Part shown: piece by piece, positions 13,817 to 40,250 of the stretch
Numbering within the stretch: position 1 is the first letter of the stretch
Layout of the letters: each line of letters begins with the position of its first letter
Origin: a virus
Reading direction: 5' to 3' (one strand)
Length of the DNA stretch: 40,250 bases
Virus record (IMG/VR): IMGVR_UViG_3300008262_000200
Location: 1 to 40,250 of that record
Notes under the pieces: generated by a model
Databases searched by the model: none
What the model saw: only the letters and a program-made list of their open reading frames with translations
Told to the model about the DNA's origin: nothing
Translations under genes and position numbers: made by a program

Positions 13817-15289
13817 TTATGCGGCGTATGGGTTATGGCGGGCGATCACTGGCTTGCGAGGTCTAGCTTCTTTGACGGGCAAGGTGACAGCCATTTGGTT
13901 GCGGTCAGCAAGTAGGCGGAGGGCTTGAGTAGTAGCATCAACAAAGTCATCATGCTTGATTGAACCTTCACCATGGAAACTGCAAACCTGAGTGATTAAA
14001 GGATCTGCCCAGGAGCGTGGCATGCCAGGACGCTTTTCCGATTCCACTACCCAGACATGTCCATGAGCAAAAAGGTGAGATACGGCATGCAGTCGCTGAA
14101 GTTTGTCTGCCCTGCCTGGATTATAAGGGTATGCCAAGATATCTTCACGCGCAAGCATCTGTCTCAAAGAAATCCCTGACCCTTTGTCCTCAATCACCAG
14201 CAGGTCAACTGACTTGCCACCTAGGAGTGATTGCTTAGGACCAACCAATGGTTGAATCATGGGCCTTAAATCCTCATCTCCGTATTTGACTTTATACTCT
14301 TTCTTTACCCGTTCAATGAGGTCTGGCAACCCAAGGTGATCTTGCCAGCAGTCAAGTAACAGGAAGTTCGGTCGCTTGTCATGCCGGAACAATCCCCAGA
14401 CAGAGCATGCTGTTGGGTCTGAGTCATGTGTCTTTTTGTCCGTTGTCTTTTCAGTGAACGCTGTGTCCAACGACATGACTATGTACTCGAAGCCTGGCAA
14501 TGGCTTGTCTGCAGGCCATAACTTGAACTGGCTTCTCTTCACTATGCCTGACTCTTCTGGGTCTATGACCTCAGCATAGATCTCTTGTCTTCCCAACTGT
14601 GTGCCCTCATACTGCGACAGCTGGTCAATGAATGACTTGGCTAAGTTGTCTTTGTTCTCATAGGTTGACCCGCGAGTCACATAGACAGAGCCTTTCTTCT
14701 TCTCTCCATCCTTAATAAGTTTCCTTACCAACTCAATAGGCCTTGGAGTGGTTGTGACTACTACCTGTGGGTGTTCGCCCAGGCGCAATCCAAACTTCAT
14801 CATGTCCCATGTCTCATCTGCATATTGCCATGCTGCCAACTCATCGCACCACACACGGTGATGCTGTGGGCCACGAAGTCGATCTGGTTCCTGTGCTGAA
14901 AAACCTTTGATGACTGATCCATTCTCTAAAATGATTTCTGATATCGTTCGGTTGTAGGACCTGATGATGGTTTCAGGTAGCACAGACAGCATGCCTGATT
15001 CACCCTCAATGCAGGTGTCTCGAATGTCACCAGAGGTTGGTGCAATGATGGAACAACGGGAACCTGGGTGTTGGGTAGCATACCAAGCGGTGTCCTCCGC
15101 CCCTGTCCTTGTCTTCCCAAACCCTCGGCCTGCCAAGATCAACCAGACATCCCAATCACCAGCAGGTGTTCGTTGATTGTCCCTTGCTGTTGCTAGCCAT
15201 CTCATGCGCCATGCCAACAGCGTCAGATCAAACACCGACAACTCAGCAAGTGAGCTGTCTAAGTTGTTTGGGTCAATGGCTACTGTCAC
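13817..15289 (-). CDS. terL: Terminase large subunit
   Basis: 490 residues with both packaging domains. ATPase: Walker A GRGFGKT at 54-60, Walker B with acidic pair VWCDE at 146-150, and the coupling motif TTTP at 179-182. Nuclease (RNase H-like): SLDTAF with D275, VIEDKGSG with E367-D368, and HDDFVD at 446-451. It pumps DNA into the prohead through the portal and cuts the concatemer. The gene starts with GTG, whose GTGA overlaps the stop of the small-subunit gene, so translation is coupled. Adjacent portal and small terminase complete the packaging module. The catalytic residues all appear intact. Confidence 0.95.
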   Translation of the reverse strand: MTVAIDPNNLDSSLAELSVFDLTLLAWRMRWLATARDNQRTPAGDWDVWLILAGRGFGKTRTGAEDTAWYATQHPGSRCSIIAPTSGDIRDTCIEGESGMLSVLPETIIRSYNRTISEIILENGSVIKGFSAQEPDRLRGPQHHRVWCDELAAWQYADETWDMMKFGLRLGEHPQVVVTTTPRPIELVRKLIKDGEKKKGSVYVTRGSTYENKDNLAKSFIDQLSQYEGTQLGRQEIYAEVIDPEESGIVKRSQFKLWPADKPLPGFEYIVMSLDTAFTEKTTDKKTHDSDPTACSVWGLFRHDKRPNFLLLDCWQDHLGLPDLIERVKKEYKVKYGDEDLRPMIQPLVGPKQSLLGGKSVDLLVIEDKGSGISLRQMLAREDILAYPYNPGRADKLQRLHAVSHLFAHGHVWVVESEKRPGMPRSWADPLITQVCSFHGEGSIKHDDFVDATTQALRLLADRNQMAVTLPVKEARPRKPVIARHNPYAA

Positions 15290-15627
15290 TTGCCGCTCAG
15301 TTTGCTCATTGCTTGGGAGATCTCATCTATCAGCTTTAGGCGAACCTCAATTGGGTTTCCATCAGCACCTGTGACCTCTATCGACCTGCGCTTGGAGTGC
15401 CCATACTGGACAACCTCTTTCAGCGCATCTTTCCTAACAGCAACAGGAAGGTTTTTGTCAAAAGCGATTTCGGCAAGCTCAGTCAATGGATCACCAAACT
15501 TGTCAATGATGGATTCCCAAGTGTCTTGCTGTGTCTTGCGCTTGGATGTGCGCGCAGCTGGGATGCCAGGAGTAGCAGCAGATAGTAGTGAAGCAGCTGG
15601 CTTCAAGTCAGGTGGCATTTTATCCAT
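15286..15627 (-). CDS. terS: Putative terminase small subunit
   Basis: 113 residues. A Lys/Arg-rich N-terminal part (RTSKRKTQQDTWESI) is followed by a predicted helical segment (DPLTELAEIAFDKNLPVAVR, DALKEVVQYGHSKRRSIE) and a C-terminal helix (LIDEISQAMSKLSGK). Size and composition fit a DNA-recognition small terminase, and the gene overlaps terL by 4 bp in the usual order. A PLxxLxxIAxxxxxPxxxRxxAxKExxxYxxxKR-like pattern is seen in other small terminases of this type. It is the first gene after control region A. Assignment rests on position and general pattern. Confidence 0.7.
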   Translation of the reverse strand: MDKMPPDLKPAASLLSAATPGIPAARTSKRKTQQDTWESIIDKFGDPLTELAEIAFDKNLPVAVRKDALKEVVQYGHSKRRSIEVTGADGNPIEVRLKLIDEISQAMSKLSGK

Positions 15628-15658: not shown

Positions 15659-15664
15659 ATTATA
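15659..15664 (-). promoter_or_regulatory. Putative -10 element of structural-operon promoter
   Basis: TATAAT on the minus strand, embedded in TATAATGG, lies about 32 bp upstream of the small terminase ATG. The region B promoter has the same TATAATGG. The -35 position (GCAATT at 17-bp spacing) is poor, suggesting activated transcription. Confidence 0.45.
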
Positions 15665-15783
15665 ACTACAACTTCAAACAAATTGCTACCACCTTATACA
15701 CGTACGTGAACCAAACCATAAAATTTTTTATATCACCACAAGAAAAAGCGTTGCAGCTAAGCCATTGTTAGCAATCAGTAACA

Positions 15784-15863
15784 TATTAGTACTTATTAGC
15801 ATTTATTAGTACTGCTATTAGCAAATAATCTTTGTTTCCGTGCATATTATTAGCATATTAGCA
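15784..15863. repeat. Phased TATTAG(T/C)A array, copy A
   Basis: Six near-identical 8-bp boxes TATTAGYA start at 15784, 15794, 15804, 15816, 15848 and 15856. The first three are exactly 10 bp apart, about one helical turn. Omitting the extra box at 15848, the spacing series 10, 10, 12, 40 is the same as in copy B. This pattern suggests binding of several protein subunits on one face of the DNA. Confidence 0.85.
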
Positions 15864-15948
15864 TTTTCAACTTTTTTCTGAAAAAAAAATAATTGGTGTT
15901 CTCTTTCTTCACGTGTATAAACCACTAAAAAACTTTCCCCACCCATCA

Positions 15949-19311: not shown

Positions 19312-19566
19312 TTACTCCTCTTTCTGTGGTTTTGGACAATTCTCTGGCACCTTTACCAGAACGTAAACAGCGGCATACCCACCACCCCTTTTCAATGGCT
19401 GTTGCCACCTATCAATGTAGACATCAGGCATCTGGCGAATGATGTTGGAGATGCTTGCATACGCCCTCCCCGTCACCCCCTCCAACTCCCTAATGGTCAT
19501 CCCATCCTCTGTCTTCCTAAGCGCACGCCTAATGGCTTTAATGGTTGCAGGTGAATCAGGATTCAT
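19312..19566 (-). CDS. Winged-helix-like small DNA-binding protein
   Basis: 84 residues from the ATG at 19566; the longer frame from 19656 is rejected because a TTG-started peptide gene ends there with ATGA overlap. The sequence has a HTH/wing pattern: SPATIKAIRRALRKTEDGMT, IRELEGVTGRAYASISNIIR (recognition-helix region), then RWQQPLKRGGGYAAVYVLVK (wing). Likely a small transcriptional regulator within the operon. DNA target unknown. It is one of three wHTH-type proteins encoded here (also 27510-27722 and the N-terminus of QueF). Confidence 0.55.
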   Translation of the reverse strand: MNPDSPATIKAIRRALRKTEDGMTIRELEGVTGRAYASISNIIRQMPDVYIDRWQQPLKRGGGYAAVYVLVKVPENCPKPQKEE

Positions 19567-20058: not shown

Positions 20059-20084
20059 ATTGTATGGTATTTTTCATTTGTCAA
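20059..20084 (-). promoter_or_regulatory. Putative sigma70-type promoter, internal
   Basis: On the minus strand TTGACA (20079-20084) and CCATACAAT with -10 TACAAT (20059-20064) are separated by 14 bp, shorter than ideal. It lies in the 48-bp gap before the gene at 20025. The CCATACAAT block and the following leader are also found at 29046-29099, supporting a functional element. Confidence 0.45.
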
Positions 20085-20469
20085 CAAGTGTTTTTGTTTT
20101 TTCTTGTAAAAGTTTTTTTGCCTCTCTTGCGCTCATTCTTACATGCGTCTTTCTATTTTCTTTCTGTGTTTTTCTTTTTTCCTCTGCAGCAGCAAACTTT
20201 GCGTGCCTTTTATGTGCCTTTTCTGCATCCTTGGGCAGCATCAATTCTGGGTCTTCCATTCGCAACACAAACTGTCCCTCATCCACATACCTTATGGATG
20301 CGCGCTTGATGAGTTTGCGCAGGAATGTTGCCTCCACTTCATAGGTAGAGAAGCGGTCAAGGCAATCGTCACTCAAACAATACCTGCGCCTCCATTGCAA
20401 ATTGTCTTTGGGCGCGGAAAAAGCAACCCTTGTCAACCCACCGCATGTGATGCATTTGATTCCAGCCAT
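20074..20469 (-). CDS. Ogr/Delta- or NrdR-like zinc-finger protein
   Basis: 131 residues. The N-terminus has a zinc motif: CITCGG (C6, C9), then RRRYCLSDDCLDRFSTYEVE (C31 and C36, a C-x4-C). This C-x2-C...C-x4-C plus (F/Y)xTYE arrangement is like Ogr/Delta late-gene activators of P2-type phages and the zinc ribbon of NrdR. The middle part is helical (ATFLRKLIKRASIRYV), and the C-terminal 50 residues are very basic (EEKRKTQKENRKTHV), suitable for nucleic-acid binding. It could activate transcription from the control regions, for instance of the structural operon; this is inference. It follows the DNA polymerase gene by 2 bp. Confidence 0.55.
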   Translation of the reverse strand: MAGIKCITCGGLTRVAFSAPKDNLQWRRRYCLSDDCLDRFSTYEVEATFLRKLIKRASIRYVDEGQFVLRMEDPELMLPKDAEKAHKRHAKFAAAEEKRKTQKENRKTHVRMSAREAKKLLQEKTKTLVDK

Positions 20470-23378: not shown

Positions 23379-24317
23379 TTATAACTCGAAAAGTGAATCT
23401 TGGAACATGTGATTAGGCTCTGGTAAGGAGTTGTGCCAAGACACAAACTCAAGCCCCGACATCAATCGTCGTGCGTTTTGATCGGTCACAATCTGTTCGA
23501 GTGTCAGACCGTAACTTGCTGCCCTGTCAATGATTGCTTGTGCTGTGCCTGGGGGCATGTTGCAGATGTGCATTCCTGCATTGTGCCTGTCTGGGCTCTG
23601 GTCAGAGGTTGCAATAGCAGTCAGTCGGCCGTTGTCGTTGAAGTTGACGCGACCCATCACAGCAGTGTAAAGCCAAGTAGCAGAATCTACTGAATACCAA
23701 GGCACTTGTTTCAACATGGTGCCACCAGTAGCAGCCAAGCCGTGGCATTTCTTCCCAGGCAACTTCCGGTGCACGTAGTTTGACCAATTGACACGAGTCC
23801 ATTCAGGCAAATCGTTCCTAGGTGAGACACAGATGTAGTCAGCCATTTCTGCAACCTCAAACATCCGTTCCTCTGACTCATTCTGGTGAAACACCGGCAA
23901 CACAATGTCCCCAAACTCCTCCTTCAATATTTTGAAGTTCTCATCTGACGTTTTGATCGCTTGCGCTATTTCCTCAGGCCCCGCTGTCACCCCAGGCGAT
24001 CCTGGAATCACATCTAAGTTGATGAGCCACACCTGCACATGCTTGGGAATGAGGGACATGATGTTCTTGTAGACAGAAATCAAATGCTTCAAGTCAACCC
24101 GTTTACCCTTTGACCAAGCGGTGAAGGCGCCACTATCCAACATCATTTCTTGAATAGCAGCGCCATCTATCTTGCACAGGTCTGCCCAGATCTTCGCCTC
24201 CTTCACATAAGCATCGTGGCAGGAGCAGAGGCGATGGGTGAACGCCCTTGCAAGGCGCTGCTTCATCTCATCTGAGCCACCGGTGGTGCCGGAGAAGAAA
24301 AGTTTGACCTTGGACAT
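23379..24317 (-). CDS. dpdA: DpdA-type DNA-guanine transglycosylase
   Basis: 312 residues. It carries the marks of the TGT-like DpdA family that inserts 7-deazaguanines into DNA: LDSGAFTAWSK (60-70, D61 matching the TGT active-site Asp), VLPVFHQNESEE (139-150), ADYICVSPRN (159-168), HGLAATGG (192-199) and SVDSATW (209-215, D211 in the position of the TGT nucleophile). It swaps guanine for preQ0 or preQ1 in DNA. In the same operon are folE, queD, queE, queC and queF, so precursor and inserting enzyme are made together. The modification would protect phage DNA against host restriction. The preferred sequence or base and whether modification is complete cannot be read from sequence. Confidence 0.88.
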   Translation of the reverse strand: MSKVKLFFSGTTGGSDEMKQRLARAFTHRLCSCHDAYVKEAKIWADLCKIDGAAIQEMMLDSGAFTAWSKGKRVDLKHLISVYKNIMSLIPKHVQVWLINLDVIPGSPGVTAGPEEIAQAIKTSDENFKILKEEFGDIVLPVFHQNESEERMFEVAEMADYICVSPRNDLPEWTRVNWSNYVHRKLPGKKCHGLAATGGTMLKQVPWYSVDSATWLYTAVMGRVNFNDNGRLTAIATSDQSPDRHNAGMHICNMPPGTAQAIIDRAASYGLTLEQIVTDQNARRLMSGLEFVSWHNSLPEPNHMFQDSLFEL

Positions 24318-24322
24318 CTCTC

Positions 24323-25024
24323 TTACTCGCCTTCGTGCCAGTATTCAAAGGTGGGCCAGAAGGGAATGCCACCTCTGGGTGTGAACTGCCCCTCTACCTT
24401 CAAATAATTTGGTTGCAACAAGTCAACCAAGGCCTGAGCAATATGTGTCACGCAGGCTTCGTGAAACTCACCTGTCTGACGAAACGAGCCCAAATACAAT
24501 TTCCATGCCTTTGACTCCACACACCATTCGCGTGGCTGATACTCCACCACAATGGTTGCAAAATCGGGTTGCCCAGTCAAGGGGCAGAGCGATGTGAATT
24601 CAGGCGACACAATTTTGATTCGTGTTTCGGCATGTGCGCCTGGGTGGGAAACTGTCAACTTCATTGGGTTGGGAAAGCGTTCAAGCAAAGATGCATCTGC
24701 ACCTTCATACTTGTACCCCGTTTCCTTGCCCAGCGACTGCAGGTGGTCAGCTTTTGAAAGCTGGATTGCGCTATGTGTTGCCATAGGTTCAAAGTCCTTA
24801 AAAAGTGGAATATCAATAGGCCCAGGCACTGCCTCAAGCCCCTCTTTATGCCAAATCCACAAACAGTGCTTGCCTGCTTTGTATTTTTTGACATACCCTT
24901 TCTCACCCAGTGCCCAAAGTGACTTGGACACAAGATCTGATGACAATTGCAGTCTTGCTGCTATGTCTTGATTGGTTAGCCAGCCGTGGGGTCCATGGGA
25001 TAGGAACCAACGGATGCGGTTCAT
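24323..25024 (-). CDS. queF: 7-cyano-7-deazaguanine reductase with N-terminal winged helix
   Basis: 233 residues from the ATG at 25024, whose ATGA overlaps the folE stop. Residues 1-75 form a winged-helix pattern (GWLTNQDIAARLQLSSDLVS, then a basic wing). Residues about 81-233 are a unimodular QueF: SPEFTSLCPLTGQPDFATI (catalytic C147, D154), VESKAWKLYLGSFRQTGEFH (169-188; the ESK motif binds NADPH/substrate) and FTPRGGI (214-220). QueF reduces preQ0 to preQ1 with NADPH. An internal ATG at 24784 (residue 81) has AAGGA 10 bases upstream and would give a protein of the usual 153-residue length, so either a fusion or a dual start is possible. Such an N-terminal domain is not part of the standard enzyme. 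Confidence 0.9.
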   Translation of the reverse strand: MNRIRWFLSHGPHGWLTNQDIAARLQLSSDLVSKSLWALGEKGYVKKYKAGKHCLWIWHKEGLEAVPGPIDIPLFKDFEPMATHSAIQLSKADHLQSLGKETGYKYEGADASLLERFPNPMKLTVSHPGAHAETRIKIVSPEFTSLCPLTGQPDFATIVVEYQPREWCVESKAWKLYLGSFRQTGEFHEACVTHIAQALVDLLQPNYLKVEGQFTPRGGIPFWPTFEYWHEGE

Positions 25025-25578
25025 CGACGAACCAGGTCTAACAGTTCTTCTTTGGCGGATCTGTCCCATTCGAAGAGCCCTTTCATTGCTGAGGTTACAG
25101 TGGAGGCACCTTGTCGTTGGATGCCACGAGATTCCATGCACATGTGGCGGCACTCAATAATGACCCCAACCGCTTTGGGTTGGAGTGCATCTTGAATGGC
25201 ATTTGCCACCTGACTGGTAAGGCGCTCTTGCACCTGTAGGCGTCTAGCAAACACATCCACTACACGCGATAGTTTGGAGAGACCTACAATCTTTCCATCT
25301 GGGATGTAAGCAACATGAGCCACACCAAAGAAAGGCGCTAGGTGGTGCTCACAATGACTGTAGATGGGAATATCCTTCACCAAAATAATCTGGTTATAGT
25401 CCTCCGCCCCATCCTCAAACGTCTTGAGTATCTCCGCTGGGTCCTCCTTGTACCCGCCCGCCCAATGCTGCCACGCTTTAGCAACACGGATAGGTGTCTC
25501 AATCAAACCGCCCCTGTTCGGGTCTTCCCCAATGACCACTTTTAACAGGTCAGCAACAACAGTTAACTTATCAGGCAT
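25021..25578 (-). CDS. folE: GTP cyclohydrolase I
   Basis: 185 residues, a standard FolE length. It contains the zinc-site segments [13 protein letters not shown] (C76, H79) and RHMCMESRG (C147), plus [20 protein letters not shown] and GVAHVAYIP, all typical of type IA enzymes. It converts GTP to dihydroneopterin triphosphate, the first step of both folate and 7-deazaguanine synthesis. Its place between queC and queF indicates the second use. It overlaps queC by 8 bp and has TAAGGAG 7 bases upstream. The zinc ligands look intact. Confidence 0.96.
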
Positions 25579-26365
25579 GCCGCATCTCCTTAATTTCGTA
25601 GATCAACTGACTGTAAAAGTCTTCGTTCTGCAAATAGTTGTCGGTGCCTGGCAACTGCATCAACCCATCCATCCATGCGCGGATGACCAAGGGGTCTGGC
25701 AACTCCGCCTCCTCAAACCCCTTTGCCCGCAACACATTGGCATGGTTCATGTCCGTTGGTGGGTACTTGCCGTCATAAGATGTGTGGGTGTAAGCAAGAG
25801 CGGCGTAGCCTCCTGCCTCTCTCATCATCCTGATGCTGTCCGCTTTTGTGCTGTCAATCAACGGGGCGATAAGGTGCAGGTGAGCAATGCCCAGCGACTC
25901 GTTAGCCATTTGCTCGTACGAAAGTCTAAAATCGTCAGTGCAATCGGGGTAGTTCGCGTTGTCAGCTTGGCATATGCCAGTAACAAGGGTGAAGCAATCA
26001 GCAACAATGGCACGATTGGCAGCAACGGTAAAGAAGAGTGTATTTCGCATCGGTACGAAGGTGAGTTCCACCCGGTTGCCAATAATTTTGTCCATAGTTT
26101 CGTAGTCATCATATTGCTCCAAAAGTTGAGAAGAATCGGTCAGTGGTGAACGCCCTTTGAGGATGGGACCGAGTTCCACTACCTCATGGGATGCACAGCC
26201 AGCGATTCGGGCAACCTTGCGTGCTGCCTCTATCTCCAAACTGTGGCGTTGGTTGTAGTCAAAGGTGACAGCATGCACTTCCTTGTAGTTTTGCTTTGCA
26301 AGGAATAAGCAGGTTGTCGAATCTTGTCCGCCAGACAAGATGACCATCGCTTTTTGTTTCAACAT
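25571..26365 (-). CDS. queC: 7-cyano-7-deazaguanine synthase, variant lacking zinc cysteines
   Basis: 264 residues. The PP-loop ATP-binding motif SGGQDST is at 11-17, and [10 protein letters not shown] (103-112) and the NYPDC segment (138-142) follow, as in QueC. It converts CDG to preQ0 using ATP and ammonia. The typical zinc cluster near the C-terminus, with SCY...CGxCxxC, is replaced at 193-215 by a cysteine-free [16 protein letters not shown] stretch, so no zinc site can form there. The flanking LRAKGFEEA and DPL motifs are kept, so the protein is not truncated or frameshifted. No glutamine amidotransferase domain is fused. Activity is probable but unproven. Confidence 0.9.
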
Positions 26366-26369
26366 ATCT

Positions 26370-26825
26370 TCAGTTTCCTTTTCCTAAGTAAATTGCTGAA
26401 TTCGCACCGTGTTCTCTCACCTCTGCACTCACCACTCGGCAACGTGGCTCATACCCCGCCTCTCTCAACCACTCATAGGCCAAGCCGTAGGCAAACTCTG
26501 CAAACTTCTCACACCCAATCTCATCCATGACGATGATATCTGCAATGCCCCTTTTCTGAGCCTCCACATACCAATCCATATTGGGGTCATCTTTGGCAAC
26601 CAGTGTCCGGTGGTCAAAGTAGTGCTCAAGCTTGGCACGCAACTTTTTCAAGCTACCAAAGTCAACCACCCAATGGTTCTCATCTAGCTCTGTTGCCTCA
26701 AACTCAAACTTAATGGACAAGGCGTAACCATGCAGTTTGTTGCAATGGCTTTTCGCCCGCCATTGACGGAAACAAGCGCTGAGGCCAATCTCATGCCCGT
26801 AGGTCTTTGTGGATCTGAAAGTCAT
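26370..26825 (-). CDS. queD: QueD-like 6-carboxytetrahydropterin synthase
   Basis: 151 residues from the ATG at 26825, which overlaps the queE stop. The core [20 protein letters not shown] (15-34) aligns with the active-site region of QueD: catalytic Cys28 and His32 are at the correct spacing. The first zinc His position is occupied by C18 or shifted, and the HGH motif reads HGY (Y34). Later FDHRTLV (70-76) and [11 protein letters not shown] (136-146) match the other conserved parts. It converts dihydroneopterin triphosphate to CPH4, the second pathway step. Similar FRQWRAxSHCxxLHGY forms are known among phage homologues, so the variant probably still functions. Confidence 0.88.
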
Positions 26826-27526
26826 GGTAGTCCAATCATTTTGTGAAGTTGTAAAGTTAGGCGGTGCCCATGGGTCATGCAAAGGGCAGCCGCGTATTCA
26901 GTGTTCTCTTTCGTCTTATCCCAATCAACAGTTTTGTCTTCATGGTACTCCATCATCGGTTGCAACCACACAGTGCCTTTGCGTGCTCTGTAAAGCATCA
27001 ACTCTTTGTGATCTTGTGTAGACATGTTGGGCAACCCATCTGCCTCACTGCATTCGCCTTTTCGCACAATGTACTTCCAATCAAAGCAGTAACGAACAAA
27101 GCCAGAATGGACAGTGCCCGTTTTTGGAGAACAGACAATGCTCACAAGTTTTGCCTCCACCAAGTCCTCCATCCCATCTTGCCACAAAGTGCCCGCTGTC
27201 TCAATCTGAATCTTCACATTGTTTGCCGCTATCAACACATTGCAAAGGTCGAGAAGGTTTTGACGGAAGGGCTCACCACCTGTGATGACCACGAGATCGC
27301 ACTTGTAGGCGGCGCACGCCTCGGCAATTTCCTGCGCTGTCATGTAGGTAGTGGAACTCTCAAAATCGGTATCACAGAAGTGGCACCGGAGGTTGCAACC
27401 ACCCAGTCGGACAAACACCGCTGGCATTCCCGCCAATGGTCCCTCTCCCTGAATGGTGTAGAAGATTTCTTGCACCCAGAAGGTGTCTTTAATCTCCCTT
27501 TTCATAATCTTATTCTTCCCGAACAT
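26822..27526 (-). CDS. queE: 7-carboxy-7-deazaguanine synthase (radical SAM)
   Basis: 234 residues. QGEGPLAGMPAVFVRLGGCN (26-45) opens the radical SAM domain, with the iron-sulfur cysteines C44, C48 and C51 in CNLRCHFC. TGGEP is at 82-86 and IETAGT lies around 108. It converts CPH4 to CDG, the third step, using S-adenosylmethionine, Mg2+ and a 4Fe-4S cluster. The start at 27526 has AAGGA 7 bases upstream and overlaps the preceding gene by 17 bp. It is the first gene of the 7-deazaguanine block and is translationally coupled to queD. All key residues appear present. Confidence 0.94.
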   Translation of the reverse strand: MFGKNKIMKREIKDTFWVQEIFYTIQGEGPLAGMPAVFVRLGGCNLRCHFCDTDFESSTTYMTAQEIAEACAAYKCDLVVITGGEPFRQNLLDLCNVLIAANNVKIQIETAGTLWQDGMEDLVEAKLVSIVCSPKTGTVHSGFVRYCFDWKYIVRKGECSEADGLPNMSTQDHKELMLYRARKGTVWLQPMMEYHEDKTVDWDKTKENTEYAAALCMTHGHRLTLQLHKMIGLP

Positions 27527-29161: not shown

Positions 29162-30700
29162 CTAGATTGGCAATTGGAAAAACCTATTGGTCTGGGGCTG
29201 GACAATGTGCAAGCACCTCCGTGCACGGGTAACTCCCACATACATCACCCGCCTCTCTGCATCTGGATTTGCCAGGTATTCGAGGTTGGTTTTTCTTGCC
29301 TGATCTAAATGCAACACCACATTCTCCGCCTCCCCTCCCTTCACCCCGTGAATGGTGTTCACATGCACCTCTGGTTTGCTTGTAAATGCCTCCGATCCGT
29401 AGATGCGAAGTATGGACAAATAGTACTCAATGTCATCCGATGAGATGGCCTTGAATGCATCATGCCAAATGGCATCTGTTAACAGACCAAAATTGTCCAC
29501 CAACTCCTGCATGGTGTAGGTGGTATTGTCTTCCATCTTGCTCAGGGATTTGAAGCCTCTTTTTACCTCATGCCCAACACGAAATTGCTCATACACTTTT
29601 TTGATAGCAACGCCTGCCTGATAGTGCCCTCTCCGCAACTTTTCCCAGCACCTAATTGCTTGCAGGTGTGTTTGATTAACTGACCATGAGCCGTGACGCC
29701 TGATGTAGGGGATACCCATGAGGCGCAAGTTCTTTTCAATGTTGGACAAGGCGTAGGTGTTGCGCACCAAAATCAACCATGAGCCCTTGGTTGGGTCAAT
29801 GGGTATGCTGTCTGGGTCATTGTGGAATTCAATCGACCCCTCCTCATTCCTTGGCACCACCGCCTTCTCATACCTGTGACTGACTTGTTTAATGATGCGT
29901 TGGGACAGGTCAAAGATGCTCCTTGGCATCCGGTGTGAAATGCCCAGCACCTCTTTTTCACCCTCAAGGGCAAGGAATGTCTTGATGTCTGCCCCTGACC
30001 ATGAGTAAATGGCTTGGTCATCATCACCTGCTATGTACACCCAGCGGCAATGCGCGAACGCAACCTTCAACACCTCCCACTGCAATGTGGACAAATCTTG
30101 TGCCTCATCAATGAAGGCGATGTCGCAGTTGACAGGTGAGCCATGGGCAACAAACTTTTCCAAGATGTCGGTGAAGTCCAACACCCCCGCCTCCTGCCTG
30201 TACCTGTCATAGGCATCAGCGATTTGTTTGAACATGTGCCAAGTAAATGCTGGTTGGGCAAGCTCTTGGTACACCTCCTCCAACGGCGCCCTCCTGACCC
30301 GCGCAAGTGAGGCGTAGAAAAGCATCTCATCACCAAGGGTGGCGCCAGCAGCCAAGCCAGTGGAATCATCTATGTTGGCGCTGAAAGGCATGCGCATGAC
30401 TTTGGAAAACTCAGCCATGTTGGCAGGGGTGACCAGTTCGTTCTTTTTAACCGCCAGTTCTCGGTAGCAAAGAGCGTGGATGGTTTTGAAGTTGTACAGG
30501 TCAGACTTTTGATACTCAAACTGCTCACATGTGCGCGAAATGGCTTCTTGTACGGCTTTTCTAGTGAATGAGACAAATGCAATGCGTCCAACAGGCGTTC
30601 CAAAGGCGATCTCCTGCCCCAGCAGCTTCAAAAGGCTTGTGGTCTTACCACACCCAGGGGCTCCTAGGATCAACCGCTGCTCGCCCATTCCAATCTTCAA
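29162..30700 (-). CDS. UvrD/Rep-family SF1 helicase
   Basis: 512 residues. Walker A GAPGCGKT is at 13-20, VSFTRKAV (43-50) is the Ia region, FIDEAQD (196-202) is the Walker B, GDDDQAIYSWSG (225-236) is motif III, HVNTIHGVKGGEAENVVL is motif V and RVMYVGVTRARR is motif VI. It should unwind DNA 3'-5' in replication or recombination. The start is TTG at 30700, with GGAG 8 bases upstream, overlapping the primase stop (TTGA); an ATG four codons later lacks a good site. It follows the primase gene in one unit. Confidence 0.93.
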   Translation of the reverse strand: MKIGMGEQRLILGAPGCGKTTSLLKLLGQEIAFGTPVGRIAFVSFTRKAVQEAISRTCEQFEYQKSDLYNFKTIHALCYRELAVKKNELVTPANMAEFSKVMRMPFSANIDDSTGLAAGATLGDEMLFYASLARVRRAPLEEVYQELAQPAFTWHMFKQIADAYDRYRQEAGVLDFTDILEKFVAHGSPVNCDIAFIDEAQDLSTLQWEVLKVAFAHCRWVYIAGDDDQAIYSWSGADIKTFLALEGEKEVLGISHRMPRSIFDLSQRIIKQVSHRYEKAVVPRNEEGSIEFHNDPDSIPIDPTKGSWLILVRNTYALSNIEKNLRLMGIPYIRRHGSWSVNQTHLQAIRCWEKLRRGHYQAGVAIKKVYEQFRVGHEVKRGFKSLSKMEDNTTYTMQELVDNFGLLTDAIWHDAFKAISSDDIEYYLSILRIYGSEAFTSKPEVHVNTIHGVKGGEAENVVLHLDQARKTNLEYLANPDAERRVMYVGVTRARRCLHIVQPQTNRFFQLPI

Positions 30701-32049
30701 AACTCACTCTCCACCTGCGGCACTGCAAAGTCCTCGTTCTGCTGTGCAAACTCATCTATTGACCAGCACTGCACGCACTTGCCTTTGATGTTAAATTGGT
30801 GGTGGGAAGAACCCGCTCGCCTAAGCGCTGCCCATTGCTCTTTGTTGGTAAGCTCGCGGAAATGTTGTTGATCCAGAAATCGAGCAAGATCGACTGATCT
30901 AAAGTATGTTCGTTTTTCATTTGTCCAGGGTTTGCCTGCCAGTAACTCATCTTGATGCCTTGCTTGTGCTTGTCCAGTGCAGAAGGCCTCAACCAACTGC
31001 ATAAATCTTCCCTCTGTTGATGCATCGGGTGGTGCCTCTATCAACTCCACATGCTCCAACTTCTCCTTCACCATCTTTTCCCACCTGTGCGGTTTAATCC
31101 GGTTGGGCAACTTGTTGATCTTTTCCATGCAGATTTTGCGGAACTTTTCTTGCGACAACAAGTCATCAGTATTCAACTCCAACCTGACCCCGTCAACATC
31201 AATTATCCAAGTGGGCGGATCGGACAATATTTTAACCAAAGTGCCCACATTGATGGACGGTTCATCTGAATCGTTTTGCCCAATGCCAAACTCCCTGTGC
31301 TTGCACAATTCTTTGTTGCAAAGCCCTACAATGGGTGACTTGGTACAGGGGTAGAAATAGCTCTTTCGATTAAGTGACTTGATGACCATGCCAACTTCTT
31401 TGAAAGGCAAAGGTGGGTCAACATAAAGACGGTTGTATTCTGTGACCTCTGTCTCCCAATCATCCCCAAACTTCATCCTAGCGTAAACACCTAGAGCAAA
31501 GAGGCCTTCATTCCTTTGCCCCTGTGGTATTTTGTTGAGTGAGAGCGCTTGCAGGCAAGGTGGACCATCAGCAAATGATTCGGTTTCTTTGATGGCAAGG
31601 GTAGCTAGTTTTTCCTCTGTTAGCGCAGATTTTATCTGTTCTGCCCGTTTGAGGAATTGAAGTACAGAAGCTTTCTTGCCCCCAATGATGGCGTAGCGAT
31701 CTGTCTTGTCAGCGTTGAAATGCGCGCCACCTGACTTAGTGCGGCAAGGCACAAGAGGTAAATTCATGTCTTTCAACTTGGCCTCTAACGCTGGAATGTC
31801 CAGAGGGTAGGTGTCAATGTCTATGGCACCCCAAGAACATGTTGCGTCATCTCGAATAGGAATTGAACCCACACCCAACTTGCCATTCAAATGGTCTTCC
31901 CACCTGTCCAAGGTCAACGGCTCCAACACCGTCAACGCTCTGCCTGAAATCTTTTTATCCCCAAGCGATGCATCATTGATACGGTATTGCCCGTGTGCCC
32001 GGTGTAGCCCTTCAAACAGGGCTTGAAATCTTTCTGCTACTTGTCTCAT
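30697..32049 (-). CDS. AEP-type primase, missing motif III region
   Basis: 450 residues. It has the archaeo-eukaryotic primase motif I (GAIDIDT, D77 and D79) and motif II (SGGAH, 106-110), followed by a C-terminal part with PQGQRNEGLFALGVYARMKF, DPPLPFKEVGMVIKSLNRKS and a cysteine cluster FYPCTKSP...LCNKELCKHREFG (C235, C244, C249). In relatives about 60 residues containing the third catalytic acid (an EIFPK-like segment) and a GNWxNxPYF-like strand lie between SGGAH and FNADKTDRYAI. Here SGGAH runs straight into FNADKTDRYAI in frame. The enzyme would make RNA or DNA primers, but the missing motif may inactivate it. Placed next to the SF1 helicase gene. Confidence 0.8.
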   Translation of the reverse strand: MRQVAERFQALFEGLHRAHGQYRINDASLGDKKISGRALTVLEPLTLDRWEDHLNGKLGVGSIPIRDDATCSWGAIDIDTYPLDIPALEAKLKDMNLPLVPCRTKSGGAHFNADKTDRYAIIGGKKASVLQFLKRAEQIKSALTEEKLATLAIKETESFADGPPCLQALSLNKIPQGQRNEGLFALGVYARMKFGDDWETEVTEYNRLYVDPPLPFKEVGMVIKSLNRKSYFYPCTKSPIVGLCNKELCKHREFGIGQNDSDEPSINVGTLVKILSDPPTWIIDVDGVRLELNTDDLLSQEKFRKICMEKINKLPNRIKPHRWEKMVKEKLEHVELIEAPPDASTEGRFMQLVEAFCTGQAQARHQDELLAGKPWTNEKRTYFRSVDLARFLDQQHFRELTNKEQWAALRRAGSSHHQFNIKGKCVQCWSIDEFAQQNEDFAVPQVESEF

Positions 32050-34076: not shown

Positions 34077-35561
34077 TTATATCCACTCCAGTTTAGGATC
34101 CCCAGTTACCAATGACGCAATATCTTGTTTATCTCTTAGTGCTTTTACTATCGCTTTGTCTATCGTGCCGACTGCTTCCACGTCAATGTAGGTTACGCTT
34201 TCGTCTTGCCCTATTCGGTGCGCTCGATCTTCGCTTTGAAGTCGAGTCTCGAGAGAGTAATCGTTCGAGTAGTAAATAACGGTTTTTGCCTTAGTAAGAG
34301 TCAACCCAATACCACCTGAATGTGGCTGACCTACAAAGAAGCGTGCATCACTTGCTTGAAACTTGTCCACTGCATCTACTCTGTCCTGCTGTTTAACTTC
34401 TCCAAAATACTGCACCACCGAATCATCGCCATACTTGGCTTTGAGAGCGGCACTAATGGCTTTGATTTCTGCTACAAAGCGTGCCCAAATGATGACCCCG
34501 CCCTGTATCTCTTCTAACGCCTCCATCATGGCAGCGATGCGTGGGTTTTTCTCGGGTGTCTCAAAATAGCTTTTGCTTTCCCCGTCATGCCCACCCACTA
34601 CCTGTTGTAGGCGCAGAATAGACTCCATCTTGGTGAGCACCTTCACATCCCCACTCTCCATCTTCATCCTCAACTCATCCTTGATGTACTTGTACGCCTT
34701 TTCCTGCACCGGCTCCAACTCATGGTACAGGCGTTGGTAAATCTTGGGCGGCAAATCCAGACATTCAACTTTCCGCTTACGGTATGAGTAAGGGGCGAGT
34801 AAGGCTTGCAACTTGTCAAGGTTCCGCCATATGGGTCTACCGTTCTTGTCCTTGGCAATGACCTGTGGGGTAAACTTAGAGCCTGTTCTTGCAACAATGT
34901 GCCGCATGAGCCCATGGTTGGCTGGCAACAACTCAGAATACTCAGCCTTAAAGGCATAGTAGCTGCTGGTCCTTAGGATATTCTCATCAAGAAACGAAAA
35001 TTGCGCGAAAACATCCGTTGGACCTTGCGTCACTGGGGTACCCGTCATTATTCTTCTGTAAGGCGCAAGTTTGGCAAGCTTCAAAATATTCTCGGTTCTT
35101 TGTGCCGTTGGTGTCTTGATTCGCGATGATTCATCAATTACGAATAGCACCTTGTGTGTGCGAAGCCAGTTCTCAGCCATTTTGCGCCCCTTTTCAGAAG
35201 AGAACGCTTCGACGTTGAGGGATAACCAACGAAGACCTACAAACTTGGGATCTGACAGGTTCTCTAGAGCCTTCTTTTCTGCCTTGGTTGGCGTTGATGA
35301 CCAGTAGGTGGCGATGTGGGGAGCCCAGTCCGGATGATGCACCGGCAACTCATTGTGAATCCAATTGCGGTGAACACCGTTGGGAGCAACCACAAGCACA
35401 GCATCAATCCGGCCTAGCCCAAACAAATGGGCAGCGGTATCAATGATGACTTTTGTCTTCCCTGTACCTTGTTCCATCAACAAGGCAAATGATTCCACCT
35501 CACAAGACAGGTTAAATGCCTCTAGCTGATGGTCATAGGGTTTGGTTTTGAATCTCTGCAT
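34077..35561 (-). CDS. SNF2-like SF2 DNA helicase
   Basis: 494 residues from the ATG at 35561. The upstream ATG at 35594 is rejected because the -10 element TATAATGG overlaps it and transcription would begin downstream of it. From the chosen start, GTGKT is at 32-36, DESS at 143-146 (a DEAH-like Walker B), TGTP at 173-176 and RAHRIGQ at 446-452. QxxRxxRxGQ, DVFAQF and LxPxIY-like parts are also seen. It is a dsDNA translocase/helicase of the SNF2 type, common in phages at the head of the replication operon. It is first after control region B. The chosen ATG has AGAAAGA upstream, like other leaders in the operon. Confidence 0.9.
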   Translation of the reverse strand: MQRFKTKPYDHQLEAFNLSCEVESFALLMEQGTGKTKVIIDTAAHLFGLGRIDAVLVVAPNGVHRNWIHNELPVHHPDWAPHIATYWSSTPTKAEKKALENLSDPKFVGLRWLSLNVEAFSSEKGRKMAENWLRTHKVLFVIDESSRIKTPTAQRTENILKLAKLAPYRRIMTGTPVTQGPTDVFAQFSFLDENILRTSSYYAFKAEYSELLPANHGLMRHIVARTGSKFTPQVIAKDKNGRPIWRNLDKLQALLAPYSYRKRKVECLDLPPKIYQRLYHELEPVQEKAYKYIKDELRMKMESGDVKVLTKMESILRLQQVVGGHDGESKSYFETPEKNPRIAAMMEALEEIQGGVIIWARFVAEIKAISAALKAKYGDDSVVQYFGEVKQQDRVDAVDKFQASDARFFVGQPHSGGIGLTLTKAKTVIYYSNDYSLETRLQSEDRAHRIGQDESVTYIDVEAVGTIDKAIVKALRDKQDIASLVTGDPKLEWI

Positions 35562-35592
35562 TTCAAATCTTTCTGTTGCTTTCTGAGCCTCC

Positions 35593-35619
35593 ATTATAGC
35601 CCAATCACAGCAATGTCCA
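35593..35619 (-). promoter_or_regulatory. Putative promoter of replication operon
   Basis: On the minus strand the -10 element TATAAT (35593-35598, perfect consensus) has TGGACA (35614-35619) 15 bp upstream, or TTGGAC at 16-bp spacing. It lies just downstream of the box array of control region B. The -10 overlaps the first ATG of the downstream frame, so the start site lies about 7 bp beyond it. Confidence 0.6.
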
Positions 35620-35708
35620 ATTGTTTTTTCCTATGCCATACACGTGCGTGATAGGGAACAAATATATTTTTCATTTCCCAAAACCGAAACCGTTGCAACA
35701 AAGCATTC

Positions 35709-35717
35709 TGTGGATAA
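35709..35717. other. Perfect DnaA-box match
   Basis: TGTGGATAA is the reverse complement of the consensus TTATCCACA. It sits 9 bp from the first TATTAG box of region B. Region A, otherwise similar, does not have it at the corresponding place. Confidence 0.55.
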
Positions 35718-35725
35718 CTACGAAA

Positions 35726-35805
35726 TATTAGCTGTTATTAGCACTTATTAGTACCCATATTAGTAAAAAGTCAATGACTACGTGTGTTTTATCAACATAT
35801 TAGCA
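35726..35805. repeat. Phased TATTAG(T/C)A array, copy B
   Basis: Five boxes start at 35726, 35736, 35746, 35758 and 35798, four reading TATTAGYA and the first TATTAGCT. Start-to-start distances of 10, 10, 12 and 40 bp equal those of copy A. The last box lies in the 24-bp block shared exactly with copy A. Confidence 0.85.
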
Positions 35806-35867
35806 TTTTCAACTTTTTTATGAAAATAAAAAAATGACCTAAGGGTTCGCGCACGTGTAAAGCGCAC

Positions 35868-35897
35868 AAAAAAAGCCCCACCGGTTAGGGCAGGGCT
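35868..35897 (-). terminator. Intrinsic terminator after large virion gene
   Basis: On the minus strand AGCCCTGCC, loop CTAACC and GGTGGGGCT form a 9-bp stem (with two G-T pairs) followed by seven T (the last A of the stem pairs with the first). It stops transcription from the large virion gene about 45 bp after its stop, separating it from control region B. Confidence 0.8.
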
Positions 35898-35942: not shown

Positions 35943-38900
35943 TTAATGCAAATATGCGTTGTACCTATAAGCAAGGTTAGCGAGTTGAGGGTTTCTCAGC
36001 AATGGGCGTACCAAACCACCTCTTGCAAGTCCTTCTGGGTTTTGACGCAACTGCTCCTGTGCATCCCGCAACTCTTCAACCTTTATTTCAATCAAGTTCA
36101 TCACTGCTCTTTCTTGGCCTTGCATTTGCGGGAATTGTGCCATGAAGTCATTGAAGAACAGTTGTGCCTGAGCCGGGTCGCGTAACTGAGCCAAATAGGT
36201 ATTGTGCAAACGGTCAAGCAAGTCATTTTGCTCTGGTGTGGCATTTTGTCTTGCAGGAAGTGCAGGAGCGTTGGCTGGGTGTCCAGGATCTGGCTCAAAC
36301 AAATTCAGGTCATCCACATTGATTTCTGCCGGTGGTGCAGGCAACTCGTTGTATCCTTCTGGAGGTATCCTTCCTTCCATAAAGTCCGGTATTGGATGAC
36401 CTTGCTGTATTAGCCTTTGTGCCATCAACCACACAACTTCTCTTTGTGCTTGCAAATTTTCATCTGCATTCATCCCATGTTCTCGAAAACCAGGATAATC
36501 AAGCTCTCCGTTAACCAAGGCGTACATAGTGTCGTGAACAGCGGTCAAGTTCATGCGACCATCAGGATGCACATCTTGGGTCAACAAGTCATCTGCTGCT
36601 GTTTGAGGGTCAAAAGCAAACTGCTGCCCTGCTTCACGCTCATAGCGTTCAACATATTGCTCAAGTTCCGTTGCCAAATTAAACATGTCATTTTCGTTTT
36701 GACCCATTTCACGGTGCAAGTGTTGAACACCCCCGTTATTGCGCAAAGAATAAGCATAGTGCCTTAAAGAATCAGCATCAATTTGCCCAGTTTCAAGTCT
36801 AGTAGTTAAGTTGTCAAAACTTTGCTGGATGTCTTGAGGTTCAACGGGGTATGGGTTGTCTTGACCAACCATTTCTCTGGTTCGTGCATCCCTAATGGCA
36901 TTTTCCATGTTTGCTAAAGCATCAGTCAACTTGTCTTGCAAGTGCAGGTAACCGTTCCGAGTCAAACCCATTTGAGTAGGTGTTCTGAAACCTTCATTCA
37001 ATGCTTGTAAGTTTTTAAACGCCCCATCTTTTACTGCTTGATAGCGGGCTGTGTCTGTAGCGGCATTTCGGTATTCGTCAGAATTGCGAATGTCATCCCA
37101 GATGGAGGTCAGGTATTGTTGCGTTCGTTCTCCTGTGTCCATAGATGCCACAAACTGAGAACTCATCCGCCTTTCACCAACTTCACCAACTGTTTCTTGT
37201 GGTGCATCATATGCCAATTGCCTTGTAACAGGTACATCTATAAACTCTGGAACCTTGATGTTTTCCCCTGCAGTAAATGCTTTTGCCACCAAATACCCTT
37301 CAGTTCTTGAAAGCGGTGCAATCAACGCACGAACTACTGGGTCATTTTCATACTTGTTGATTATTCCTTGTATTGAGGTGTTGTTTCTGTAATCAGGTGA
37401 ATCGTAAAACCGGGTGCCAGGAGGTGCATTTTGCAACCTGTCAAAATGCTCATGTATCTGGTCAAGCACATCTCTTGCCTTTCTTCGCATCTCTACAGAA
37501 GATGGTTCTGTCAACAAGCGTGATTTTTCCTCTGCCAAAGCAGCATGCAATTTTTCTAAGACTTGATCCCTGATTTGATTAAACTTTGTTTGTTGAGCAA
37601 CGCTTTGTTGAGGCAACACATCCATACCAGATACTTCAAACAATCTACCCGTACTGGTGTTGTTGGTTAGTCTGTCAATGACATTTTGCAAAGAATCAAC
37701 ATCTGGGTTGCCGTCATGCCCTTTTGCATAGTCTAACAATTTACCAGCAGCGTCATCAGTTGAAAAATCACGGATTCTTGACTCCACCCAAGCGTCTTTT
37801 ACCTTGTCTGCATACTTACTAAAACTGTTTGCATCGTGTACATTCTTAAAACCCTCTTTTTGGTTGGTGTTAATTTGATAGGCGCGGTCGTATATGTCGC
37901 GAGCACGTTTAAGTTCTGAGTTTAATTCTTGCGGTGTCATTTGAGCAAGCTCAGCATCGGTTTTAAGTGGTGGTGCAAGTGTGGACATGGGCATACCGTA
38001 TTGACGGGCAGCTTCCAGTACATCTTCCTCTCCAATAAACCGCTTATCACCCAGCCCACTGATTAAAGCCTCATTGCGTCGGTTGCGGTAAATGTTCCAC
38101 ACCTTATCAATGTCTTTTGAAAGTTGATCGGTCAACTTTGCTGGGTCAAGCGCTGCCATGAAAGTGTTTTTGCTGTCATTACCAAGTGCCTCACCTACTA
38201 CCTCATGTATCCAATCTTGGAAATCTTCACCCGGTGGGACAAGGTTGGGGTCACCCGCATTGTCTATATATGTGACTAGATCCATTTGCGCCTCACGCCG
38301 CGCTTCATCCGCTACCTCTGTCATCAAGTCATCTACTGCGTGGTGGTCAAACAGGGGGTTAAATTTGACAGCATCCCGTTGATGACTTTCCCCCAAGTCA
38401 ACGGTGTTGGGAAGGTTGTGCTTGTCATTGACATTGCCGTCTAATTTGTCTTTGTTTTGATTTAACCATGCGCGAATGGGTGCCTCAAACCTTGGGTCTA
38501 TTCTACTGTTATTTTCACCCTTTATCTGATCTATTTTGTAGGTAGTCTTGTCGTCCATCAATTTCTGAAGTTCAGGCATTTCAGCAACAGCAGTTCGCCA
38601 ACCCATCCCTGTCTGTATAAACCTCTGCACCCCAACTGGCAAGGCATTAATTTGATTCATGCCGTTGTTTAAAAGATAGCGCTTTACGTCCTGCTGTATA
38701 TCATCTGGGTTGGGGCTGTGTAGACGCACCTGCATTGCACCCTGCGCTGAGCCGTCAGGGGCGTAGACAGCAGGAAACATTTCTCGACCCGCCACTGCCT
38801 CATCAATGTAGCCAGAGGAGGTGGTGTCGTTGCCTCTTGGTACAAGACCTGTGTGCGGTTCAACCAAAGGGGCGTGGCCGGGATAATCAGGTGTACCGTG

Positions 38901-40250
38901 ACCACCACGCGCAAGGCAGAAATTCAAGTCTTTGGTGAGAACTGAAAAATCTCGGATGTACATGTCAGGGTTAGCATCAATGAATGCTTTGTCAAACACC
39001 ACTACCCTTGACCCTGCAGGTGTAATGCCAACCGGATTTGTAAAAACAACAGAAGCTGGATATTCTTGAACACGGTTGTAGCGCCAGTCACCATATGCTT
39101 TCTTGCTGTTCTGCCTTGCTTTTTCTTCTGCCTTCTGTTGTTTGTGCGTCAAGTTGATGGCAGCTGTCATATCAACTTTTTTCAAGTCTTCCGGTGCAAT
39201 TTCACCTTTCAACAGGCTTCTAAAAACATTTTTTCGCACATTTTCCAAGCCAAATTTATCTACGTAGCGGTCATTTATGTCGTAGATCGGAACATCATCT
39301 GGAACTTTGGACATGTAAGGGTAGTCAGGACCTGTGTAGCCCTCATCCTTTAGCAACTCATTGTGCCACGCTTGTGCATCTGCCTCATCTAGAAATGCAG
39401 AAGCTTTTACATCCGTTGAGTTATTCCCCCGCCTTGATACCCACCGTTGCCCGTAGCCCGGTACATTCTCTAACGCAATGCTTGGAGGTTCTTGTGCTCT
39501 AACCCTATCATCATCCCAGTGGCTAGAGGTAATGGAGGCGTCACTCATGTTTTCAACTTTTTGACCCAATGGGGTAGTTGCAGTTTGAGTACCGATTTCT
39601 GGATTCTTTGCCAAAGTGTCAGCAGAATGGGTACTGACGGCGTATTGACGTTCGTTTTCACCCCTGTCTTGTGCCCGGCTGTAGTAGCTAGAATCCGTCA
39701 CAAAATCACGGTCACCCACAAACACATCTTTTTCTGCCGCTTTGACAAATGGGTCGTTCTTGGTTCCAGTGCCCATTTGTTTGGTGATGTAGTTGAGGTA
39801 GGGGCCTTTGGTAATCCAGCCATAATAATCCTCAATTACCCTGCCCACATCCAAGGAAGACCCCGGGATTTGTGCAAACGGTGAATCTGCGTGTTCTGCA
39901 TTCCATTGCTTTGTAAATGCATCACTTGCTGAGTTAAGAATGACGTTTTTAACATCTTTGGGCAAGTCATAGAAGTCAATTTTAGCAGGCAAGCCAGGTG
40001 TGTTTTGTAACTTTTGCACTTCTGGCTGTTCAATAAGAGCTGGGTACTTTTGTATCCATTCTTCCAACGGTTTTGACTCGTTTTTTACCTCTTGTCCAAG
40101 AAACTCATCAAAAGCATTTCTCTGACCTGAGTCAAGTACATTCTGTTTCCATTCAATAAAATGGGTTTTGCCAAGGCCTGGAATTTCACTGACGGGAGTG
40201 TAGTTGAGGTCAGGGGCAACTGAATGTAGGTGGCTGTATACAGGAGAGGT
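35943..40250 (-). CDS. Very large virion-type protein, partial (N-terminus beyond right edge)
   Basis: The frame is open from the right edge to the stop at 35943, 1435 residues. No start is needed inside the window; a TTG at 40067 is not a convincing start because the frame continues upstream of it (SVAPDLNYTPVSEIPGLG). The middle (nucleotides about 38490-39120) contains a QKAEEKARQNSKKAYGDW helix, an EYPASVVFTNP strand, an LNFCLARGG segment, AVYAPDGSAQGAMQV and DQIKGENNSRIDPRF. This set resembles the conserved central module of giant internal or structural proteins of podovirus-like phages. The C-terminal ~500 residues are helix-rich and acidic, ending EGLARGGLVRPLLRNPQ. A transglycosylase or protease site is not evident. 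It is probably packaged with, or ejected before, the DNA. Confidence 0.7.
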   Translation of the reverse strand, partial: TSPVYSHLHSVAPDLNYTPVSEIPGLGKTHFIEWKQNVLDSGQRNAFDEFLGQEVKNESKPLEEWIQKYPALIEQPEVQKLQNTPGLPAKIDFYDLPKDVKNVILNSASDAFTKQWNAEHADSPFAQIPGSSLDVGRVIEDYYGWITKGPYLNYITKQMGTGTKNDPFVKAAEKDVFVGDRDFVTDSSYYSRAQDRGENERQYAVSTHSADTLAKNPEIGTQTATTPLGQKVENMSDASITSSHWDDDRVRAQEPPSIALENVPGYGQRWVSRRGNNSTDVKASAFLDEADAQAWHNELLKDEGYTGPDYPYMSKVPDDVPIYDINDRYVDKFGLENVRKNVFRSLLKGEIAPEDLKKVDMTAAINLTHKQQKAEEKARQNSKKAYGDWRYNRVQEYPASVVFTNPVGITPAGSRVVVFDKAFIDANPDMYIRDFSVLTKDLNFCLARGGHGTPDYPGHAPLVEPHTGLVPRGNDTTSSGYIDEAVAGREMFPAVYAPDGSAQGAMQVRLHSPNPDDIQQDVKRYLLNNGMNQINALPVGVQRFIQTGMGWRTAVAEMPELQKLMDDKTTYKIDQIKGENNSRIDPRFEAPIRAWLNQNKDKLDGNVNDKHNLPNTVDLGESHQRDAVKFNPLFDHHAVDDLMTEVADEARREAQMDLVTYIDNAGDPNLVPPGEDFQDWIHEVVGEALGNDSKNTFMAALDPAKLTDQLSKDIDKVWNIYRNRRNEALISGLGDKRFIGEEDVLEAARQYGMPMSTLAPPLKTDAELAQMTPQELNSELKRARDIYDRAYQINTNQKEGFKNVHDANSFSKYADKVKDAWVESRIRDFSTDDAAGKLLDYAKGHDGNPDVDSLQNVIDRLTNNTSTGRLFEVSGMDVLPQQSVAQQTKFNQIRDQVLEKLHAALAEEKSRLLTEPSSVEMRRKARDVLDQIHEHFDRLQNAPPGTRFYDSPDYRNNTSIQGIINKYENDPVVRALIAPLSRTEGYLVAKAFTAGENIKVPEFIDVPVTRQLAYDAPQETVGEVGERRMSSQFVASMDTGERTQQYLTSIWDDIRNSDEYRNAATDTARYQAVKDGAFKNLQALNEGFRTPTQMGLTRNGYLHLQDKLTDALANMENAIRDARTREMVGQDNPYPVEPQDIQQSFDNLTTRLETGQIDADSLRHYAYSLRNNGGVQHLHREMGQNENDMFNLATELEQYVERYEREAGQQFAFDPQTAADDLLTQDVHPDGRMNLTAVHDTMYALVNGELDYPGFREHGMNADENLQAQREVVWLMAQRLIQQGHPIPDFMEGRIPPEGYNELPAPPAEINVDDLNLFEPDPGHPANAPALPARQNATPEQNDLLDRLHNTYLAQLRDPAQAQLFFNDFMAQFPQMQGQERAVMNLIEIKVEELRDAQEQLRQNPEGLARGGLVRPLLRNPQLANLAYRYNAYLH

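Follow-up and report, generated by a model that had tools for sequence, protein, structure and literature searches.

Iterons of plasmid origins and of P1 oriR are about 19-22 bp long and placed nearly in tandem, and the operators of phage lambda are 17-bp palindromes, with the repressor gene located between divergent promoters. A plan with two origins has been described for the lytic Bacillus phage SPP1, where gp38 binds two distant origins, each made up of direct repeats plus an A/T-rich region (PMC6316719). The environmental phage DNA analysed here resembles SPP1 oriL/oriR in having two distant, similarly organised sites with direct repeats, beside which A/T-rich stretches may correspond to the A/T-rich region of SPP1. 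Its repeats are short TATTAG boxes in a fixed register, and literature searches on the motif layout found no description of such a layout.

Two Phased Arrays in the Window

The window, that is, the whole stretch of DNA under analysis, is a 40,250-base IMG/VR record. It contains two arrays of TATTAG boxes on the plus strand (CTAATA in gene sense, the major window genes all being on the minus strand), one on the helicase side and one on the terminase side. In the helicase-side array (35726-35803, array region 35726-35805), exact TATTAG starts at 35726, 35736, 35746, 35758 and 35798, and the +64 position (35790) holds a degenerate TATCAA. The terminase-side array (15784-15861, array region 15784-15863) has six exact boxes, starting at 15784, 15794, 15804, 15816, 15848 and 15856 (0/10/20/32/64/72). 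The register common to both copies, 0/10/20/32/72, is the one that a first-pass annotation had read from the sequence, and the one extra box mentioned there is the +64 box of the copy starting at 15784. The two copies aligned gap-free across approximately 240 bp around the arrays, with 34/36 identical positions in the box columns and 24/42 in the inter-box columns (Fisher p = 1.2e-4).

Chance clustering of the boxes was ruled out by dinucleotide simulations, since no more than 2 boxes per 84 bp appeared in 100 simulations of the window, and no more than 3 in 3,000 of the 349-bp gap. Analysis of helical phase at 10.5 bp (six boxes; R = 0.87, p = 0.016; weaker at 10.0 or 11.0) supports the earlier proposal that the boxes share one face of the DNA, with modest statistical significance. 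Ungapped duplication alone would also keep the spacing within one genome, and therefore any conclusion about spacing required independent lineages.

Conservation of the Register in Related Phages

TATTAG-form arrays were found in three lineages, namely the window phage and two relatives, G004 and G005, which were identified through helicase searches (helicase identity 75 and 74%, respectively). Both relatives are known as contigs, so that gene absence there may be missing sequence. The terL and terS genes of G005 are 56 and 57% identical to those of the window, and its terminase-side copy is flanked by the genes for the VRR nuclease and the small terminase subunit. Between this element and the VRR nuclease gene, G005 has AACCCATTGATTCACCG repeated directly three times (L306, 3650-3740), a feature absent from the corresponding window gap. 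A G004-like terminase-side copy is carried by contig L329, from the same metagenome as G004; the shared sample, the terL relationship and the similarity of the elements suggest that it belongs to the G004 phage.

For a held-out test, the register was defined from the window only and then scored on the copies of the relatives. The terminase-side copy of G005 matched at 34/36 positions, a score never reached in 1 Mb of random sequence with the composition of the elements, and the G004-like copy (L329) matched at 31/36, likewise absent from 1 Mb of random sequence. On the helicase side, the G004 copy gave 23/36 matches (p ~3e-5), with a 1-bp shift of its final two boxes, and the G005 copy gave 16/36, which is not significant, its middle boxes being replaced by two inverted boxes. 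Comparison of the terminase-side copies of the window and G005 revealed that 34/36 box positions were identical against 16/42 of the inter-box bases (p = 9e-8), and neither the G005 nor the G004-like terminase-side copy contains an indel inside the array. The claim that the spacing is under selection was thus supported by the terminase-side copies of two lineages outside the defining set, which kept boxes and register while the bases between them diverged. Exactness of the spacing did not extend to the helicase-side copies, given the 1-bp slip in G004 and the rearrangement in G005.

A scan of IMG/VR with TATTAR at 0/10/20/32 gave matches confined to this family of three lineages, and the register was found in no other indexed viral contig. 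Across 84,980 genomes of bacteria and archaea the same pattern occurred 9 times, never with the full family register and in no case together with homologues of window proteins, and a host-encoded binder with sites in the host genome was accordingly discarded. Among cultured phages, those closest in polymerase or terminase, Stenotrophomonas phage Bhz54, Pseudomonas phage PSASB_03 and Caulobacter phage GB2A, are distant, and when phage records were searched directly with the element's DNA, the only hits were short fragments lying on the terminator or next to it.

The Array Is the Core of a Larger Inverted-Flank Unit

In all six elements the array forms the core of a 190-240-bp unit and is bracketed by inverted, outward-facing flank motifs, CACGTGTATAA-like in the window and G004 and CTATATATAAAAC-like in G005. 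At the helicase side of the window, the promoter-proximal flank (CACGCACGTGTATGG in sense; 35624-35651, minus strand) and the distal flank (35847-35874, plus strand) form an inverted repeat of 28 nt with 75% complementarity. Those of the terminase side (ACGTGTATAA in sense, 15694-15703, minus strand, and 15911-15920, plus strand) form a perfect 10-nt inverted repeat. The distal flank is located 130-138 bp from box 0 in 6/6 elements. The distance from the array to the promoter-proximal flank is matched between the two copies of a genome (82/82, 103/101 and 58/58 bp in the three genomes), but that to the -10-like box is not (127/119, 123/148 and 69/97 bp), indicating that the promoter lies outside the unit. 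Exact DNA looping of the two flanks on one face was rejected, because the flank-to-flank distances of 172-234 bp are not whole helical turns.

For each lineage, the copies sharing a genome were more alike than copies at the same site in different genomes (alignment scores of 161, 180 and 144 versus 56-118). By these distances and alignments, flank, array and flank behave as one unit inherited as a block. Gene conversion, or joint evolution with a single protein acting in trans, would keep its two copies matched. That both copies have been replaced together in different lineages points to the same two possibilities, co-evolution of site and protein or conversion of one copy by the other, and makes a candidate protein searchable by co-variation.

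Genomic Context of the Two Elements

A near-identical contig, G001, runs approximately 16 kb beyond the right end of the window; this extension contains only minus-strand genes, with matches to holin, tail, ejection and structural proteins. The most parsimonious map is a circularly permuted genome, presumably closing into a circle, that carries two operons of the same direction. The early order is the helicase-side element, then helicase, primase, 7-deazaguanine genes, DNA polymerase and VRR nuclease; the late order is the terminase-side element, then terminase, portal, capsid, tail and giant proteins, and the helicase-side element again. Each element therefore occupies the gap that precedes one operon, upstream of helicase or of terminase.

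The first early gene (34077-35594, minus strand) encodes the helicase (PHROG 62, E = 1.1e-112). The first late genes (13817-15627, minus strand) encode a terminase small-subunit-like protein (15286-15627), so called from its position and because the gene preceding terL in G005 is 57% identical, and the large subunit (13817-15289). TATAAT -10-like boxes on the minus strand were recognised from the sequence at 35593-35598, where GCTATAATGG is kept in the helicase-side copies of all three lineages, and at 15659-15664, upstream of the small terminase gene. The intrinsic terminator of the preceding late operon is located at 35874-35897 (minus strand). Because the conserved TATAAT at 35593-35598 overlaps the ATG of the annotated-length ORF 34077-35594, and close relatives align only from approximately residue 10-12, the true helicase start is probably the ATG at 35561.

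Other features of the window were recorded. A gene for a DpdA-like protein (queuine tRNA-ribosyltransferase family), followed by FolE-, QueC-, QueD- and QueE-like genes, occupies 23379-27526; the resemblance of the latter four is by order and by similarity to Stenotrophomonas phage Bhz54, and the region is a probable 7-deazaguanine DNA-modification cluster. In the primase ORF (30697-32049), around 31720, the window is about 155-159 bp shorter, with a 4-bp overlap at the join, and the primases of G001, G004 and G005 have about 53 residues more. ORF 35943-40067 has 1374 aa, is cut by the window end and reaches at least 1670 aa in G001; it gave no family match, and G005-like phages (L423, L424) have a weakly related ORF between terL and portal.

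Candidate Binding Proteins

The spacing kept in distant relatives, with changed bases in between, makes it very probable that a protein array binds the boxes. Three window proteins had been put forward as binders, and only that encoded at 20074-20469 (minus strand) is shared with G005, at 56% identity; no homologues of the proteins at 19312 and 27510 were detectable in the 29-kb part of G005 that was compared, which includes the array. The shared protein is NrdR-like, with a zinc ribbon (Pfam Zn_ribbon_NrdR, E = 2.8e-5, below the curated cut-off). As the only one of the three shared with G005, it may be considered the first candidate among them, although sharing does not identify the binder. 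A search for single-subunit RNA polymerase (PF00940) gave no match in 10 records, nor in the control sequences, and the giant ORFs gave no polymerase match; T7-like promoters at the flanks were accordingly set aside with the polymerase not found in this weak search.

Elements of the ~56-kb Relatives

The relatives G006-G011, six phages of 55-58 kb with terL approximately 75% identical to that of the window, have no TATTAG arrays. All six carry instead a CTATAG...TTTTG element in two copies (e.g., G006 19365-19534 and 40486-40650), one upstream of the small terminase gene and the other at the late/early junction before a DUF932 gene. These elements are like the TATTAG units in their equivalent genomic positions, two copies and outward inverted flanks, with both outward-facing motifs found for each copy in 5/6 relatives, at a separation of roughly 130-156 bp; the exception is G010, where the search at one mismatch missed one of its four motifs. 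They differ in that there is no TATTAG array and that several have a ~50-bp inverted repeat and a central GAGCGAACGA motif, and the early gene order of these phages is unlike that of the window.

A conserved protein of 146-148 aa with a CxxC-x3-CxxC motif, encoded divergently from terminase, adjoins the terminase-side copy (L049:1411-1854 and approximately 35 relatives). Its AlphaFold model (pLDDT 86) had no fold match in the PDB and the name DNA-binding protein was therefore withheld; no homologues were found in the window or the compared TATTAG relatives.

Possible Origin Features and GC Skew

An exact DnaA-box consensus, TTATCCACA, adjoins the helicase-side array at 35709-35717 (minus strand), and exact TTATNCACA occurs a single time in the window, beside this array. 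In the six elements taken together, 11 DnaA-like sites were observed versus 3.2 expected (~3.4-fold enriched); the box is exact only at the helicase-side copy of the window, with one-mismatch sites elsewhere, and is thus not common to all six. An A/T-rich stretch, possibly an unwinding region, lies between the helicase-side array and its distal flank (35804-35846; 78-80% A+T in 40-bp windows), and another is located on the distal side of the terminase-side array (15862-15910). The relatives reach up to 90% A+T per 40 bp, so the 80% of the window is less extreme. GC-skew extremes were found near the elements and are equally well explained by early and late gene composition, and this ambiguous measure was dropped as an origin test.

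Discussion

Both alternatives named by the first-pass annotation, a switch or an origin iteron set, are retained here, with the array now seen as part of a larger inverted-flank unit. We tentatively rank first, at somewhat less than an even chance, a two-copy iteron-type initiator site organised like SPP1 oriL/oriR and placed beside operon promoters. A phage-encoded protein would form a regular oligomer over the six TATTAG boxes, on one helical face and anchored between the outward-facing flanks; such loading of the iterons would bend the DNA and promote opening of the A/T-rich stretch next to it, at the helicase-side copy with the help of host DnaA, and recruitment of the helicase and primase of the phage would follow. 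The two copies may represent a main origin and a second (late or fork-arrest) origin, like oriL and oriR. This reading is favoured by the register kept in the terminase-side copies of two other lineages, the phasing of the boxes on one helical face, the inheritance of the unit as a block, the DnaA-like enrichment and the A/T-rich sides, and by the different element that the ~56-kb relatives carry at both equivalent boundaries. Against it count the location of the elements directly upstream of -10-like boxes, as operators would be, the DnaA box not being present in all six, the A/T-rich stretches of the window being less extreme than those of the relatives, the rearranged helicase-side array of G005, and the fact that no initiator gene was identified.

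The main competitor, ranked second and a plausible though lesser possibility, is an operator or enhancer pair, in which a phage regulator polymerises on the boxes and switches the early and late operons together or in turn. Each copy is indeed the only regulatory gap heading one operon, every copy is followed by a -10-like box, with GCTATAATGG retained in all helicase-side copies, and the small Cys-rich gene of the ~56-kb relatives is conserved and divergent beside the terminase-side element, as regulators often are. That protein, however, has neither a fold match nor a homologue in the window or the compared TATTAG relatives, and the flanks face outward on both sides, yet nothing divergent lies on the distal side in the window phage. 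The array-to--10 distance varies from 69 to 148 bp and is unequal even within one genome, unlike class I/II activators with their fixed geometry, which disfavours a contact activator. This unfixed distance, together with the origin-like features (register, A/T-rich sides, DnaA sites and two copies), tentatively places the initiator site first.

The remaining explanations are all improbable. A pac/cosB packaging site, at which an oligomer of the small terminase subunit reads phased boxes beside its own gene, agrees with the copy directly upstream of terS and with phased repeats, which are typical of terminase-binding sites; it has little probability, because the site beside the terminase genes is not the only one, the unit recurring ~20 kb from it at the helicase operon in all lineages with both regions seen, and because the ~56-kb relatives differ in sequence at the terminase-side site despite terL being 75% identical. 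Slightly less probable still is an element read as repeated UACUAAUA boxes in leader RNA. The boxes are on the gene strand in most copies, but the -10-like boxes downstream of the arrays and the terminator upstream of the helicase-side copy probably place the arrays outside the main transcripts, and the G005 helicase-side copy has inverted boxes. Least probable of all is recent ungapped duplication conserving the spacing without a binding protein. It would account for copies that are gap-free over ~240 bp and evolve in concert within genomes; as the sole cause it is largely refuted by the simulations and by the G005 and G004-like terminase-side copies, which keep the register with no array indels, the inter-box bases having diverged in G005 (16/42).

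The arrays provide a base-pair-exact, independently conserved signature for a putative binding site in otherwise unstudied environmental phages. A broader proposal, which we regard as unlikely but worth stating, is a lineage-wide system of two concerted nucleoprotein sites per genome where the early and late operons meet, which would coordinate the start of replication with early and late transcription and whose recognition sequence would be replaced as a matched pair. Confirmation of an origin function would add these phages to SPP1 as a second lineage organised around two origins, and would open their early-to-late (theta to concatemer) switch to testing.

With respect to known systems, the two elements resemble lambda OL/OR as two regions of repeated sites that, if operators, would control two transcription units, but differ in their non-palindromic boxes, co-directional operons and lack of a repressor gene at the site. 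Iteron-type plasmid origins and P1 oriR share direct repeats with them, and also have a DnaA box and an A/T-rich region, to which the exact box at the helicase-side copy and the A/T-rich stretches may correspond; here, however, boxes of 6-8 bp are spaced at 10, 10, 12, 32 and 8 in two copies, and no counterpart of the Rep protein was recognised in the phage. In SPP1, one protein (gp38) binds both sites; these are separated by ~13 kb, oriL lying within gene 38, and those of the window are ~20 kb apart, both in operon-boundary gaps. Beyond the comparison with SPP1, the elements described here have inverted flank motifs and evolve as matched copies within each genome.
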